DNA of 20,519 nt, taken from IMG/VR virus record IMGVR_UViG_3300007734_000442, positions 1 to 20,519 of that record; one strand, written 5' to 3'. The notes below the pieces were generated by a model. The model did no database searches, was not told the DNA's origin, and was given only the letters and a program-made list of their open reading frames with translations. Positions 3,866-18,812 of the stretch are shown here, piece by piece. The position numbers were made by a program, and so were the translations under genes. The DNA comes from a virus. Positions within the stretch are counted from its first letter, which is position 1. Each line of letters begins with the position of its first letter.

Positions 3866-4065
3866 TGTATACCAAGTTAGATGATTGGCGACATGCCCAC
3901 AGAGTTAACGAGATACTACGGAGTAATCCGTCTATCACACAGAAAGACCTGTGTAAGAAAATTATAACTAATTGGCACAGACTAAAGTATTTGCAAGAAC
4001 AAGGTTTAATAACTTTAAGGAGGAAACATGAACAAAGAACAAAAGAAAATCATACGCAAATTTGA
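3865..4065 (+). CDS. Small helix-turn-helix protein (66 aa)
   Basis: ATG 3865 is chosen for its TAATG overlap with the preceding stop; an in-frame GTG at 3853 is possible. Residues about 14-50 read RVNEILRSNPSITQKDLCKKIITNWHR-LKYLQEQGLITL. This is a typical helix, turn, recognition helix and wing-leading 'L..QGLI' arrangement of winged-helix regulators. The C-terminus is basic. It probably binds DNA. Which operator it reads is unknown, but the operator-like palindromes at 727 and 4499 are nearby candidates. Confidence 0.6.
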   Translation: MYTKLDDWRHAHRVNEILRSNPSITQKDLCKKIITNWHRLKYLQEQGLITLRRKHEQRTKENHTQI

Positions 4066-4285
4066 ACGATGGCAAGAAAGAAAGTTTGCGTCAAACGCAA
4101 AAAAGGGGTGGCGTTTCTTTCAACCCGATAGCGTGCCGTTACCTACACCACGAAGTTCACGAGAGGCTTGGGGTGGAACATACACAAACGAAGACGATGA
4201 CTGTAGACAAGAAAAGTATATGACAATAACTATTTATGCGTTTGCGTTTATTTATATTGCGTTTTTACTTTGGAAGGATTTTTAA
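4028..4285 (+). CDS. Basic protein with C-terminal membrane helix (85 aa)
   Basis: ATG 4028 follows AAGGAGG and lies 38 bases inside the preceding gene. The N-terminal half is strongly basic (KKIIRKFERWQERKF). Residues about 66-82 (TITIYAFAFIYIAFLLW) form one hydrophobic helix right at the end, so it looks tail-anchored with a cytoplasmic basic domain. The stop overlaps the next start as TAATG. Function unknown. Confidence 0.6.
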   Translation: MNKEQKKIIRKFERWQERKFASNAKKGWRFFQPDSVPLPTPRSSREAWGGTYTNEDDDCRQEKYMTITIYAFAFIYIAFLLWKDF

Positions 4286-4498: not shown

Positions 4499-4527
4499 TT
4501 GACATTGTCAAGTGGTTGTAGTATAAT
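4499..4527 (+). promoter_or_regulatory. Consensus sigma70 promoter with palindromic -35
   Basis: TTGACA (4499-4504) and TATAAT (4522-4527) match the sigma70 consensus perfectly with a 17-base spacer. The -35 is embedded in the perfect 15-base palindrome CTTGACATTGTCAAG (4498-4512), which should act as an operator. It opens the unit beginning at 4622. Confidence 0.9.
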
Positions 4528-10099: not shown

Positions 10100-10938
10100 G
10101 TATCAGTATAGCAAGCAGTGCAGTTTTAATTGACTTAAACATATCAGTATGGACAGCTAGGAAACTAGATAAGAATGTGTCTAAAGAAATTGATATTAAC
10201 AAAAACACAACCATCAAGGCAGGTAATTATAACAAACATATCCTTGCAGGTTCAGACCAACTAGATGCTATCACAAAGTTAGCAAATGAAATTCGTGATT
10301 GGCATGGTAGGCAAACTCTGCCTTGGTCAGATACAGGCACACGATTGTTACCTATGACTAACTTCTTTGATTACAAACATCAGCTAGGAGTGTATGAGGC
10401 TGAGTTTAAATCTCGTATAAATACATTTATACAACAATATCCTAACATCATACAAGGTATGGCTTTTAAATTAGGTAAGTTGTTTGACAGAGCAGAATAC
10501 CCCGATGCAGATAAGATTGCAAATAAGTTTAACTTAAGATATACTATTATGCCTGTGCCTGAAACAAATGACTTCCGTGTTGACATCGCAGATGATATTC
10601 GTGATGAAATGCAAAAAGAATATCAGAAGGCATACGAAGGTAGAGTTGAAGCCGCCATGAGTGATGCATGGTCAAGACTACACACCACACTAGAACATAT
10701 GATAGATAGATTAAGTGGTGAAGATAAAAAGATATTTAGAAATAGTTTGGTAGATAATGCATTAGAGTTGACAAATCTGTTAACAAGGCTTAATGTAACA
10801 AACGACCCTAAATTAGAGAAAGCAAGACAAGCTTTAGAACAATCTCTAGTGGGTGTCACAGCAGATGAGTTACGAGATAGCATAGGTGCAAGACAAGAAA
10901 TACTTGCTCGAGTCAATGAAATTATGGAGACCATATGA
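10096..10938 (+). CDS. DUF3150-type protein (280 aa)
   Basis: It resembles DUF3150 proteins, which in phages and plasmids tend to occur beside MoxR/CobS-like ATPases and VWA/CobT-like proteins, as here. Visible family features are an N-terminal LNISVWTARK, a central TLPWSDTGTRLLPM (residues about 74-87), then FKSRINTFIQQYP and GKLFDRAEYPDADKIANKF, PVPETNDFRVDI, and a long helical C-terminus. ATG 10096 follows AGGAGG in an ATGA overlap. The function of the family is unknown to me. Co-occurrence suggests it works with the ATPase. Confidence 0.75.
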   Translation: MSISIASSAVLIDLNISVWTARKLDKNVSKEIDINKNTTIKAGNYNKHILAGSDQLDAITKLANEIRDWHGRQTLPWSDTGTRLLPMTNFFDYKHQLGVYEAEFKSRINTFIQQYPNIIQGMAFKLGKLFDRAEYPDADKIANKFNLRYTIMPVPETNDFRVDIADDIRDEMQKEYQKAYEGRVEAAMSDAWSRLHTTLEHMIDRLSGEDKKIFRNSLVDNALELTNLLTRLNVTNDPKLEKARQALEQSLVGVTADELRDSIGARQEILARVNEIMETI

Positions 10939-15565: not shown

Positions 15566-16239
15566 TGGCTGAATTTAAAACGTGGTCTTATTCAAGTGCT
15601 ACCACATTTGAAAAATGTCCCAAACAATACTATCATCTGTATGTAGCAAAAGATATTAAGCAAGACCCGAATACAGAACATTTTCTTTATGGTAACGAAG
15701 TTCACAAAGCTTGTGAGTTATATGTTAAGAACGCAACTCCTTTGCCTGATAAGTTTAATATGTTTCAACCTACACTTGACAAATTAATTTCTATTCCAGG
15801 TGATAAATATTGCGAATATAAATTAGGATTGACAAAAGATTTAGAACCATGTGATTTTTTTGCATCTAATGTTTGGTGGCGTGGGGTAATAGATTTACTT
15901 GTTGTCAATCCCGAAACTAAATTAGCTACCTTGATTGATTATAAGACAGGCAAGTCAAGTCAATATGCCGATACTAGACAGTTATCTTTATTTAGTGTAG
16001 CTATATTTAAACACTTTCCTGATATGCAAAAAGTCAAGTCTGGTTTAGTATTTTTAGTAAGTAAAGAAATATTAAAAGAGGACTACACAGTTGACAAAGT
16101 AGATGAAATGTTTGAAGAATGGGGTAAAATAACATATAGGATAGATGCCGCTCATAAGTCAGGAACTTTTAATGCAGTCCCTAATTTTGCATGTAGGAAG
16201 TTCTGTCCCGTTCAATCATGTTCACATTGGGGAAAATAA
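15565..16239 (+). CDS. Cas4/RecB-like PD-(D/E)XK nuclease with Fe-S Cys
   Basis: A 224-residue PD-(D/E)XK exonuclease-like protein. Motifs in order: SATTFEKCPKQYY with Cys18, GNEVHKACE (His47), WWRGVIDLL (Asp110), TLIDYKTGK (Asp125, Lys127), and RQLSLFS (Gln139). The C-terminal CRKFCPVQSC (Cys210, Cys214, Cys219) with Cys18 gives the four-cysteine arrangement of Fe-S-containing Cas4/AddB-type nucleases. It probably resects DNA in phage recombination or replication, together with the helicase and polymerase encoded alongside. It starts in a TAATG overlap. There is no CRISPR array in the window, so a CRISPR role is not suggested. Confidence 0.85.
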   Translation: MAEFKTWSYSSATTFEKCPKQYYHLYVAKDIKQDPNTEHFLYGNEVHKACELYVKNATPLPDKFNMFQPTLDKLISIPGDKYCEYKLGLTKDLEPCDFFASNVWWRGVIDLLVVNPETKLATLIDYKTGKSSQYADTRQLSLFSVAIFKHFPDMQKVKSGLVFLVSKEILKEDYTVDKVDEMFEEWGKITYRIDAAHKSGTFNAVPNFACRKFCPVQSCSHWGK

Positions 16240-16508
16240 TGGCAAGAGATTATCAAAAAGAAAACGAATACAAAGCACAACCTGATCAAATTAAAAAACG
16301 TGTTGCTAGAAATAAAGCTAGACGAATGATGATGAAAGCTGGTAAAGTGCATAAGGGTGATGGTAAAGATGTAGACCATATCATTCCTCTTAGTAAAGGT
16401 GGGGCTAATACACCAAGCAATATGAGAATTAAAAGTAAGAGTGCGAACAGTTCGTTCCCACGAAATAGTGATGGTTCATTAAAGAAAAACGTAACTAAGA
16501 AAAAATAA
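16239..16508 (+). CDS. Small HNH endonuclease-like protein (89 aa)
   Basis: ATG 16239 (TAATG overlap with the nuclease stop) is preferred to the in-frame ATG 16218. The N-terminal half is strongly basic. The core is DVDHIIPLSKGGANTPSNMRIKSKSANSSF (residues about 45-74), the His-Me finger HNH pattern: Asp-His, then GG-x-N and N-x-R. Very similar short HNH proteins occur in marine phages next to replication nucleases. It likely nicks or cuts DNA, as a free-standing homing-type nuclease or a replication/packaging factor. A structured intergenic stretch follows. Confidence 0.8.
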   Translation: MARDYQKENEYKAQPDQIKKRVARNKARRMMMKAGKVHKGDGKDVDHIIPLSKGGANTPSNMRIKSKSANSSFPRNSDGSLKKNVTKKK

Positions 16509-16661
16509 GTTTCGCAACGCAAGGCGTGAGTGCGTAAAAACCACGTCAGTTAACAATAGAAGCTTTCAGTAAAGCCTTTCGATCTATGTGTTAACACTGC
16601 AGTGTGTAGACGTGTCACTACCTCTCTCGGTGGCACGTCTATTTTTATCTAGGAGATTGCA
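16509..16661 (+). ncRNA. Candidate structured RNA between HNH and helicase genes
   Basis: This 153-base gap can fold almost throughout. CGCA-ACGC/GCGT-TGCG form a bulged stem (16513-16534). GTTAACA-ATAGA (16549-16560) pairs with TCTAT-TGTTAAC (16583-16595, one bulged G) and encloses a small GCTTT/AAAGC hairpin (16562-16575). ACACTGCAGTGT is a perfect palindrome (16594-16605). A 12-bp terminator-type stem closes the region. No clear promoter is seen inside. It could be a processed small RNA, a 5' regulatory leader for the helicase, or just a terminator region. I recognise no known riboswitch or tRNA. Confidence 0.45.
16607..16646 (+). terminator. Intrinsic terminator or attenuator before the helicase gene
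   Basis: TAGACGTGTCAC (16607-16618) pairs with GTGGCACGTCTA (16630-16641), 12 bp with one G-U pair, with an 11-base loop and a following TTTTT run. This is a strong rho-independent terminator by appearance. It lies just 4 bases before the AGGAG site of the downstream TTG-started gene, with no promoter seen between, which suggests conditional read-through. Confidence 0.75.
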
Positions 16662-18224
16662 TTGGAAGTGTATAAAGATAAGGCGTTGATTGTTAATACA
16701 AAACGTCCAGAAATTATTTTAAATAAGATACCTAAAAGTAAAATCATAAAAACTTATGATAATGGTGTCACACAAGTAGCTGTTAATTGGGGCTTAGATG
16801 AAGTCTTAACACTATCTGATATGAAGGTTAAAAATCCACCTTCTCCCATAACACGTGACTACGACTTCCCAGGTATACATAAACCTTTTGATCATCAAAA
16901 AACCACTGCTGAATTTTTATCAGCACACAAACGTGCATATTGTTTGAGTGAAGCAGGCACAGGGAAAACATCAGCAGTTATATGGGCTGCCGATTATCTT
17001 ATGAAAGTAGGTAAGATAAGACGTATGTTAGTAGTGTGCCCACTATCTATTATGCAAGCAGCATGGCAATCAGATTTTTTTAAAACAGCTATGCATAGAT
17101 CAGTAGGTATTGCTCATGGTAATGCTGAAAAGCGCAAGAAAGTATTTGCAGAAAATACAGACGTAGTTATAATTAACTATGACGGTATAGAAATAGTAGA
17201 GAAAGAAATTAAATCTGGCGGTTTTGATTTAATAGTTGTCGATGAGGCTAACTATGTCAAGACTGTCACAACACGTCGCTGGAAGTCACTAAACCGTGTT
17301 CTAACTCCTAACACATGGTTATGGCTTATGACAGGAACACCCGCTGCTCAATCACCAGCTGACGCATATGGACTGGCTAGACTTGTGAACCCCGCATCCG
17401 TTCCAAAATATGCAGGAACTTTTAAGGATATGGTAATGCAGAAAGTCAGCCAGTTCACCTGGGTGCCTAGATTTAACGCACAAGATATAGTATTTAAAAC
17501 ATTACAACCCGCCATTCGTTATACCAAAGACGAATGTTTAGATTTACCTGATGTGCTATACACAACTCGTGAAGTTCCTCTTACTCCTCAACAAGATAAA
17601 TATTATAAGAAGTTTAAAAAAGATAGATTTATGCAAGCTGGAGGAGAAGATATTACAGCGGTTACTGCAGGTGTAGTCTTAACAAAACTCTTACAAGTAA
17701 GTGCAGGGGCAGTATATTCAGATACAGGCGAAGTTATTGAGTTTGATATATCTAATCGCATGACTGCTCTCAAAGAAATTATAGATGAAGCAAGTCATAA
17801 AGTTATTGTGTTTTGTCCTTTCCGTCACAGTATAGAAAAAATACTTACAGAGTTACACAAAGATAAAATTACATGTGCTGCCATACATGGTGATGTATCT
17901 ATGAATGTTCGCACAGATATATTTAAAAACTTCCAAGAAAAGAAAGACCCACAAGTATTGGTAATACAACCTCAAGCTGCATCACATGGAGTTACACTCC
18001 ACGCAGCTAACGTAGTTGTGTTTTGGTCACCTGTTATGTCAGTTGAAACATACATACAGTGTTGTGCACGTATGGATAGAGCAGGACAAAAAAATAAAAT
18101 GACTGTGGTTCATCTACAAGGTAGTCCTGTTGAAAAAAGAATCTATTCAATGCTTCAAAATAAAATTGATAATCATGTTAAATTAGTTGATCTTTATAAA
18201 GAGGAGTTTGAAGATGGCGCATAA
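16662..18224 (+). CDS. SNF2-type DEAD-like helicase
   Basis: Superfamily 2 helicase/translocase of 520 residues. Visible motifs: Q motif FDHQKTTAEFL (Gln79), Walker A EAGTGKTS (Gly99-Thr103), Ia VVCPLSIMQAAW, Walker B VVDEAN (Asp194-Glu195), III LMTGTPAAQSPAD, IV IVFCPFRHS, and V/VI QAASHGVTLHAANVVVFW then QCCARMDRAGQ. DEAN replaces the more usual DEAH. It probably remodels DNA-protein complexes or forks during phage replication. The start is TTG 16662 because AGGAG (16651-16655) is well placed and the next in-frame ATG would remove about 53 residues. Expression may depend on read-through of the terminator just upstream. Confidence 0.92.
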   Translation: MEVYKDKALIVNTKRPEIILNKIPKSKIIKTYDNGVTQVAVNWGLDEVLTLSDMKVKNPPSPITRDYDFPGIHKPFDHQKTTAEFLSAHKRAYCLSEAGTGKTSAVIWAADYLMKVGKIRRMLVVCPLSIMQAAWQSDFFKTAMHRSVGIAHGNAEKRKKVFAENTDVVIINYDGIEIVEKEIKSGGFDLIVVDEANYVKTVTTRRWKSLNRVLTPNTWLWLMTGTPAAQSPADAYGLARLVNPASVPKYAGTFKDMVMQKVSQFTWVPRFNAQDIVFKTLQPAIRYTKDECLDLPDVLYTTREVPLTPQQDKYYKKFKKDRFMQAGGEDITAVTAGVVLTKLLQVSAGAVYSDTGEVIEFDISNRMTALKEIIDEASHKVIVFCPFRHSIEKILTELHKDKITCAAIHGDVSMNVRTDIFKNFQEKKDPQVLVIQPQAASHGVTLHAANVVVFWSPVMSVETYIQCCARMDRAGQKNKMTVVHLQGSPVEKRIYSMLQNKIDNHVKLVDLYKEEFEDGA

Positions 18225-18759
18225 AGACCCTGAAAAAGCAAAACAATATCAAAAAGAATGGTATCAAAAAAATAAAGACTTAGTAAAAGCACAGCACAAA
18301 CAATATTATGAAGAAAATAAAGATCAAGTATTAACAAGACTTAGAAAATATAGAAAAAGTTTAGGTGATGCATATAAAGAATATCAAAAAGAAAGAACTA
18401 CTGTTTATAGACAAAAAAACCCTATAAGAAGTATGTATGTGTTAATAAAATCCCGTGCTAAAAAACATAATATTGAGTTTAATTTAGATATAGAAGACTT
18501 AATCATTCCTGATAAATGCCCCGTATTAAATATCCCAATTTTTAGAGAGGCTATAAAAGGAGGTAAAAGAGGCCCTAAAACTAATTCCCCATCACTTGAT
18601 AGGATAAATAATAATAGAGGCTATGTTAAAGGAAACATACAAGTTATAAGTCATAGGGCTAATACAATGAAAGGTAATGCCACACCTGAAGAATTATTAC
18701 AATTTGCCTTTTGGGTAATACTTACTTATGGATATTTAATTGATCAAAAATATAGTTGA
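18214..18759 (+). CDS. HNH-type endonuclease, free-standing (181 aa)
   Basis: ATG 18214 follows GAGGAG (18201-18206), and the start overlaps the end of the helicase gene. The N-terminal ~80 residues are Lys/Tyr/Gln-rich with repeated 'YQKEWYQKNKD / QYYEENKDQV / EYQKERTT' units, a putative DNA-binding arm. The C-terminal part has KCPVLNIPIF, then SLDRINNNRGYVKGNIQVISHRANTMKGNATPEEL, the pattern of a common phage His-Me finger endonuclease. It is very AT-rich, as expected of mobile homing-type genes. Its stop codon overlaps the -35 box of the next promoter. Confidence 0.82.
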   Translation: MAHKDPEKAKQYQKEWYQKNKDLVKAQHKQYYEENKDQVLTRLRKYRKSLGDAYKEYQKERTTVYRQKNPIRSMYVLIKSRAKKHNIEFNLDIEDLIIPDKCPVLNIPIFREAIKGGKRGPKTNSPSLDRINNNRGYVKGNIQVISHRANTMKGNATPEELLQFAFWVILTYGYLIDQKYS

Positions 18760-18783
18760 CATTGTAAATAAGTGTGCTATACT
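18756..18783 (+). promoter_or_regulatory. Sigma70-type promoter with extended -10
   Basis: TTGACA (18756-18761) and TATACT (18778-18783) are 16 bases apart, with TG at 18775-18776 before the -10. TTGACATTGTAAA shares its first ten bases with the operator-bearing promoter at 4499 but lacks the second palindrome half. It reads into the gene at 18813. Confidence 0.82.
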
Positions 18784-18812
18784 GTTATCCTTAGTTATTG
18801 AAAGGAGTAAAT

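Follow-up and report, generated by a model that had tools for sequence, protein, structure and literature searches.

A conserved pseudoknotted RNA found beside different genes in many bacterial viruses

A conserved, structured RNA some 130 bases long lies in the 153-base gap that separates a small HNH ORF (ending at 16508) from a TTG-start helicase ORF (beginning at 16662) in the window, a 20.5-kb virus record from IMG/VR analysed over its full length of 20,519 nucleotides. The RNA (16515-16646, + strand) consists of an H-type pseudoknot, a 7-bp stem with an inner hairpin (P3) and an intrinsic terminator with its U run, as delimited by a match to model R1, alignment A2 and pair counts. It is a member of an RNA family that spans many different bacterial viruses and lies beside different genes. 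We infer its expression and function from sequence: the observations are best accounted for by a discrete RNA that forms the 3′ end of the upstream transcript, and we give about even chances to a trans-acting phage small RNA that would be the tail of that transcript, freed by processing and ended by the terminator.

All parts of the RNA lie on the + strand. Model R1, which has the window sequence itself among those behind it, matched 16515-16556. In the pseudoknot, stem S1 pairs ACGC (16517-16520) with GCGT (16532-16535), and double changes were found in 4 of its 4 pairs both in alignment A1 and in alignment A3. Stem S2 pairs GGCGTG (16523-16528), preceded by an unpaired AA, with CACGTC (16542-16547), followed by an A; the 5′ strand is supported by pair variation in A3 and the 3′ strand by A1, A2 and A3. 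The invariant AGT junction (16529-16531), in which RNAalifold paired GT with AC and bulged the A, was fixed by the search patterns and hence is not independent evidence. P3 is composed of an outer stem GTTAACA/TGTTAAC (16549-16555/16589-16595) and an inner stem ATAGA/TCTAT (16556-16560/16583-16587), with double changes in 9 of these 12 pairs in A2, and its loop contains the pyrimidine-rich CCTTTC (16575-16580). The earlier note had described nested stems followed by a 12-bp terminator stem before the helicase gene. The stems are real, though the description was incomplete in that the 5′ part is a pseudoknot, and the terminator was confirmed (16607-16646): it has stem strands at 16607-16618 and 16630-16641, the loop TACCTCTCTCG and a U run at 16642-16646, and is thus a GC-containing stem followed by a U run, as expected of intrinsic terminators. 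Four of its 12 pairs are doubly changed in A2, and the predicted fold extends the stem by one pair at either end. A simple terminator scan did not list it, presumably owing to the loop limit of 8 in that scan.

The gene upstream of the RNA (16218-16508, +) encodes a small HNH protein of 96 aa (Pfam HNH, 24.4 bits against a cut-off of 21.4; phrog_4590), and the gene downstream (16662-18224, +) an SNF2-type helicase that starts with TTG in the window and with ATG in some relatives. The helicase ribosome-binding site, read from the sequence as AGGAGA (16651-16656, +), is kept in near relatives by eye. Behind the helicase lies an Endonuclease VII-like gene (18187-18759, +; phrog_3322, phrog_1035), a second nuclease gene nearby. 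In line with the earlier claim of no promoter in the gap, none of the matches listed by the promoter scan is a + strand sigma-70-like site within it. The top three sigma-70 sites of that scan, at 727-754, 4499-4527 and 18756-18783 (+), are near-perfect (12, 12 and 11 of 12 matches) and may delimit operons of the window phage.

The folding energy of the whole gap was -45.0 kcal/mol (z -2.38; 5 of 200 shuffles equally good), which bears out the structured gap reported from the sequence, and that of the conserved part (16515-16645) was -42.7 kcal/mol (z -4.10; 0 of 200 shuffles as good). The further claim that this is the most structured gap holds by energy, the conserved part being the lowest among 511 segments of 131 nt, and not uniquely by z, by which the segments at 16521 and 16515 ranked third and thirteenth (40 shuffles each, noisy); the ranking compared 131-nt segments and not gaps as such.

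All four helices show compensated changes in relatives (A2). The earlier note had held that a lack of covariation in relatives would speak against its reading; covariation was looked for in A1, A2 and A3 and was found. In A2, which comprises 28 near relatives, the 34 pairs were 99.1% paired and 16 of them were doubly changed, compared to 7.5 in shuffles (0 of 500 as high), a signal that disappeared on sliding the partners. The 54 diverse cores of A1 were 94.6% paired with a covariation score of 0.423 versus 0.217, and the 75 cores of A3 were 95.5% paired with a score of 0.513 versus 0.212. For both A1 and A3, the percentage paired, the double-change cells and the covariation score were each matched by 0 of 500 shuffles; two other measures, the count of pairs showing a double change at all and the further types of pair, were not above shuffles.

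Counts of individual helices agree with the alignments. S1 was paired in 54 of 57 sequences (permuted mean 27.7, maximum 35) and P3 was present in 66 of 71 (swapped mean 23.9, maximum 32), both counted after removal of loci by eye; with no removal by eye, the counts were 40 of 43 for S1 (permuted mean 16.1, maximum 23) and 39 of 43 for P3 (swapped mean 16.0, maximum 20). The second pair of S2 occurs in A3 as CG, GU, GC or AU and the fourth as GC or AU, while a separate scan recovered the third pair as U-A; since the patterns or filters demanded a paired S2, the evidence lies solely in which pairs occur. Likewise, the invariance of the AGU and AAC linkers and of much of S2 is partly imposed, search patterns or filters having fixed them. 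The patterns left the S1 partner strands and all of P3 free, save for a GCG in the 3′ strand of S1 in one scan pattern and a single base in its 5′ strand in another.

Family members share an S1 of at least 3 bp, an L1 that is usually AA, an S2 of the form GRCRUG, GCCRUG or GCURUG with its complement, and AGU and AAC linkers; on the 3′ side of the pseudoknot P3 directly adjoins, usually with 6-7 bp, and a terminator comes next in most contexts tested. Motif scans of IMG/VR returned 69, 83, 22, 59, 87 and 22 stretches, which overlap and include chance matches; duplicates were removed throughout. The GRCRUG form of S2 yielded 74 distinct members after 22 loci were removed as chance, the GCCRUG form 43 distinct cores with none removed by eye, and the GCURUG form 14 loci. 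Of 96 distinct motif matches with a paired S2, 66 had S1 in strict register and the other 30 were judged singly, 10 being retained because a slight shift brings S1 into register and 20 discarded by eye as chance; the drop list for the GRCRUG set names 22 loci, and the 54 of 57 and 66 of 71 above are accordingly selected counts. The scan for the U-A third pair gave 22 stretches, among which 14 passed the S1 and P3 thresholds, seven passed one and a single locus (L360) passed neither. Two matches to a GGG form of S2 were judged to be chance, both resembling one coding sequence by eye; one of them (L363) is nonetheless above the S1 and P3 thresholds. The motif occurred once per record in 61 of 61 records searched whole (31/31 and 30/30), and a reversed-pattern control gave 0 in all; these records were chosen for matching the motif, many are fragments, and the motifs miss variants.

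The genes beside the RNA change with the clade. PHROG searches of 30 neighbouring proteins identified a Gp2.5-like ssDNA-binding protein, major head protein, terminase small and large subunits, portal, tape measure, head decoration, primase/helicase and a late transcriptional activator, among others; no match was obtained for 11 of the 30, and some of the rest fell into families of unknown function. One carrier, L098, also encodes an excision factor, and temperate phages are therefore probably included in the family. An ORF upstream of its RNA (10390-10821, +) is by eye what we take to resemble a Q-type antiterminator; the counterpart in L112 had no PHROG match. Promoter-like sites upstream of the RNA were near expectation at 9 of 12 matches (6 of 79 regions versus 4.2 expected), in keeping with an RNA transcribed from the upstream gene; at 10 of 12 they numbered 2 of 79 versus 0.2, which counts against this.

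Carriers outside IMG/VR include a few Methylophilaceae genomes. Among GenBank phages, the RNA was found in Acinetobacter phage 4316 alone, between DUF2815 and the next gene. A blast search of GenBank phages with the RNA region of L252 returned nine records, of which this phage aligned over the full length and the other eight over about an eighth of the query. Its copy, seen by eye, has a changed base after S2 and was missed by the motif scan, which shows that the motif under-counts. Blast searches of GenBank phages with the window and with the RNA regions of L098, L121, L167 and L269 gave no match, nor did the motif on three further GenBank phage records that included Acinetobacter phage 4316, and R1 gave no acceptable match on 18 such records (best W11, E 0.41).

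Scanned for the GRC form of S2, a genome-contig collection of 84,980 species held no strict motif; the looser version of this form gave 16 matches, two of them structured (L194, L196). A model search of 187 genomes of the G053 family (L196 is titled Methylophilaceae) gave eight matches, four judged real; three of the others overlap ORFs (L238-L240) and one is a weak alignment only (L241). Three carriers including the seed genome were found among 399 genomes of the order, the seed genome alone among 398 genomes of the phylum and 369 of the class, and G471 alone among 43 genomes of its family; the large searches ran with stricter filters that lose weak matches. By eye, three copies of the G053 family share neighbours that look chromosomal and the G471 copy is surrounded by phage-like genes. 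In two genomes of the family, L242 (9178-9801, -) and L249 (3221-3844, +), the RNA is followed by what by eye is a YqaJ-like nuclease gene; a third with similar neighbours, L248, is without one. Two bacterial-genome copies (L236 1501-1564 and L237 1501-1561) have an insertion in pseudoknot loop 3, by eye an extra hairpin.

The loop of P3 offers a possible means of action. Among 67 non-redundant loops, restricted to those with P3 above threshold and with named loci dropped, the top 6-mer was CCTTTC (13 versus 1.4 expected), and 5-mers of the 16S tail occurred in 47 (24.6 expected, maximum 33). The reversed tail was likewise enriched (41 of 67 versus 25.0, maximum 33), and anti-Shine-Dalgarno pairing is therefore only a lead; the signal may reflect mere pyrimidine runs. 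The sole candidate target examined, the ribosome-binding site GAAAGGAG (18800-18807, +) before the gene behind the 18756 promoter, is constant in the near clade whatever the P3 loop, with no co-evolution.

We propose that the RNA would be transcribed as the tail of the mRNA of the upstream gene, nuclease/HNH in the window, that the transcript would end at the intrinsic terminator, and that processing in front of the pseudoknot would free an RNA whose 5′ end the pseudoknot may protect. The freed RNA would then act in trans as a small RNA, perhaps through pairing of the pyrimidine-rich P3 loop with ribosome-binding sites or, alternatively, with the pseudoknot displayed to a host factor; partial read-through would carry transcription into the helicase gene that follows. 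A single copy per record and the lack of a fixed neighbour favour action in trans over regulation of the helicase in cis. Release of a small RNA from the 3′ end of the nuclease/HNH transcript was one of two readings in the earlier note; it agrees with the conservation, covariation, terminator and single copy, while the release itself is presumed. In the window and in the A2 rows, the RNA stands behind a coding gene and has an intrinsic terminator at its 3′ end. The terminators and upstream ORF ends counted below also favour this reading, whereas the terminase group, with no terminator found after the RNA, speaks against it.

An element acting in cis at the end of the upstream mRNA, stabilising or punctuating it with no role in trans, has a small but appreciable probability. 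It would account for the same-strand ORF that ends at most 100 nt upstream in 17 of 28 representatives (simple caller, at least 50 aa), for the terminator 3′ of the RNA in 51 of 79 regions versus 5.0 expected, and for the T run that by eye directly follows P3 itself in L189. Such an element should, however, recur within a genome, and the 61 records hold one copy each; some copies also precede genes, and no terminator was found behind these copies. This is the arrangement of the terminase group (L098, L100, L112, L121, L167, L170, L183), where a gene start comes next. Three other loci (L034, L038, L040) were scored as terminator-less, presumably through a rule that allowed no mismatch.

Slightly lower is the probability of an anti-defence or host-takeover decoy, in which the pseudoknot would bind and titrate a host protein or ribonucleoprotein. 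This reading overlaps the host-factor branch of our preferred explanation, and the probabilities behind our wording do not sum to one. One copy per record beside no fixed neighbour would suit a decoy, as would the strong conservation of bases outside the helices, but the search patterns themselves demanded much of this conservation, and the few copies in settings that look chromosomal by eye speak against it.

The other reading of the earlier note, control of the helicase gene by attenuation or read-through, is disfavoured and we consider it improbable. Helicase relatives were drawn from the best 80 of 146 IMG/VR loci encoding one, with the helicase start readable in 77. By eye, the RNA lies directly 5′ of the helicase in 58 of the 77 (L015 is cut inside the RNA), and in the near clade the terminator stands just before the helicase ribosome-binding site, as attenuation would have it. 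In L046, L050 and L051, however, the RNA is displaced one gene further upstream; among the 77 loci it is missing by eye in several more distant relatives, and several records that hold helicase relatives, and may be fragments, gave no R1 match. The same RNA is also found beside many unrelated genes and not in a fixed position before one gene class; some copies stand at 3′ ends followed by an ORF in the opposite orientation (L090, L144 and, by eye, L102). No clear antiterminator pairing was seen, with a mean duplex energy of -11.3 versus -10.0 kcal/mol for shuffled sequences (28 A2 sequences, a weak comparison with no spread computed). In L078 (~3950-4138), a hairpin and terminator are retained behind the upstream gene and the pseudoknot and P3 are gone; from this locus the RNA looks modular.

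It is just as improbable that the RNA, while still nascent, signals to RNA polymerase in the manner of HK022 put, as an antiterminator made of RNA only or otherwise. Its conserved structured core and its place at gene borders, before packaging genes in the terminase group, are what such a signal might show. Yet put is made of two stem-loops, a boxA-like motif was not enriched in P3 loops (14 of 67 versus 17.6), and in several phages of the terminase group (L100, L112, L167, L170, L183) the sequence just 5′ of the RNA forms, by eye, a terminator-like hairpin followed by a T run, beyond the reach of the RNA. A self-cleaving ribozyme, which a compact pseudoknot with conserved unpaired bases might suggest, is very improbable given no match to any Rfam family, ribozymes included.

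At the gathering threshold, Rfam 15 gave 0 matches in the window, one tRNA on 15 loci and two tRNAs plus an RT-15 RNA on 12 loci, none of them on the RNA; a search of 16480-16700 at E≤10 gave five matches, all under gathering scores. The RT-15 match (L283 99-281, -; 162.7 bits) is on the same phage contig as a copy of the RNA. To our knowledge, few structured RNAs recur across different phages. Small pseudoknotted RNAs near a terminator are known from type III toxin-antitoxin systems (ToxI-like), but the present RNA has one copy and no tandem repeats, and the annotated downstream genes are not toxins; with one motif copy per record, a helicase (window) or terminase downstream and many neighbours of unknown function, we did not assign it to that class. 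Like HEARO and OMEGA RNAs, it adjoins an HNH protein gene in the window; unlike them, that protein has only 96 aa and many copies are without an HNH neighbour, and with no Rfam match this assignment was rejected as well. The cuckoo RNA family comprises small RNAs with anti-Shine-Dalgarno loops, and the pyrimidine-rich loop resembling the 16S rRNA 3′ end is shared, but here there is one loop, on a stem behind a pseudoknot, and the enrichment is not specific relative to the reversed control. The fold also differs from that of HK022 put, and terminator-like hairpins precede the RNA in several phages. What it has in common with put, a phage-encoded RNA element described as acting without protein (PMC9378689), is its phage origin; any transcriptional effect of the present RNA would be hypothetical. 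Like 3′-UTR-derived bacterial small RNAs, of which MalH is described as an example (PMC8081044), it lies 3′ of a gene and its release by processing is presumed; unlike them, it has an H-type pseudoknot core and a different neighbour each time, and is known from sequence alone. No such motif was found in the open literature searched, which included PMC8040213, PMC11109978, PMC8632094 and PMC12802169. We therefore file the RNA as an uncatalogued family of a known kind, the phage-encoded structured small RNA.

More tentatively, tailed phages and prophages that otherwise differ may share a mobile regulatory RNA, one to a genome, that would redirect the infected cell by docking its pseudoknot on a conserved host factor or by pairing with ribosome-binding sites; such RNAs would form a separate class for host takeover or counter-defence, which host chromosomes would have captured on occasion. 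The defined fold, the three compensated forms of S2, the single copy per record and a carrier named in GenBank, Acinetobacter phage 4316, make the function of the RNA directly testable. If it acts in trans, it would be a phage regulator overlooked by gene-based annotation, and the motif allows others to find it.
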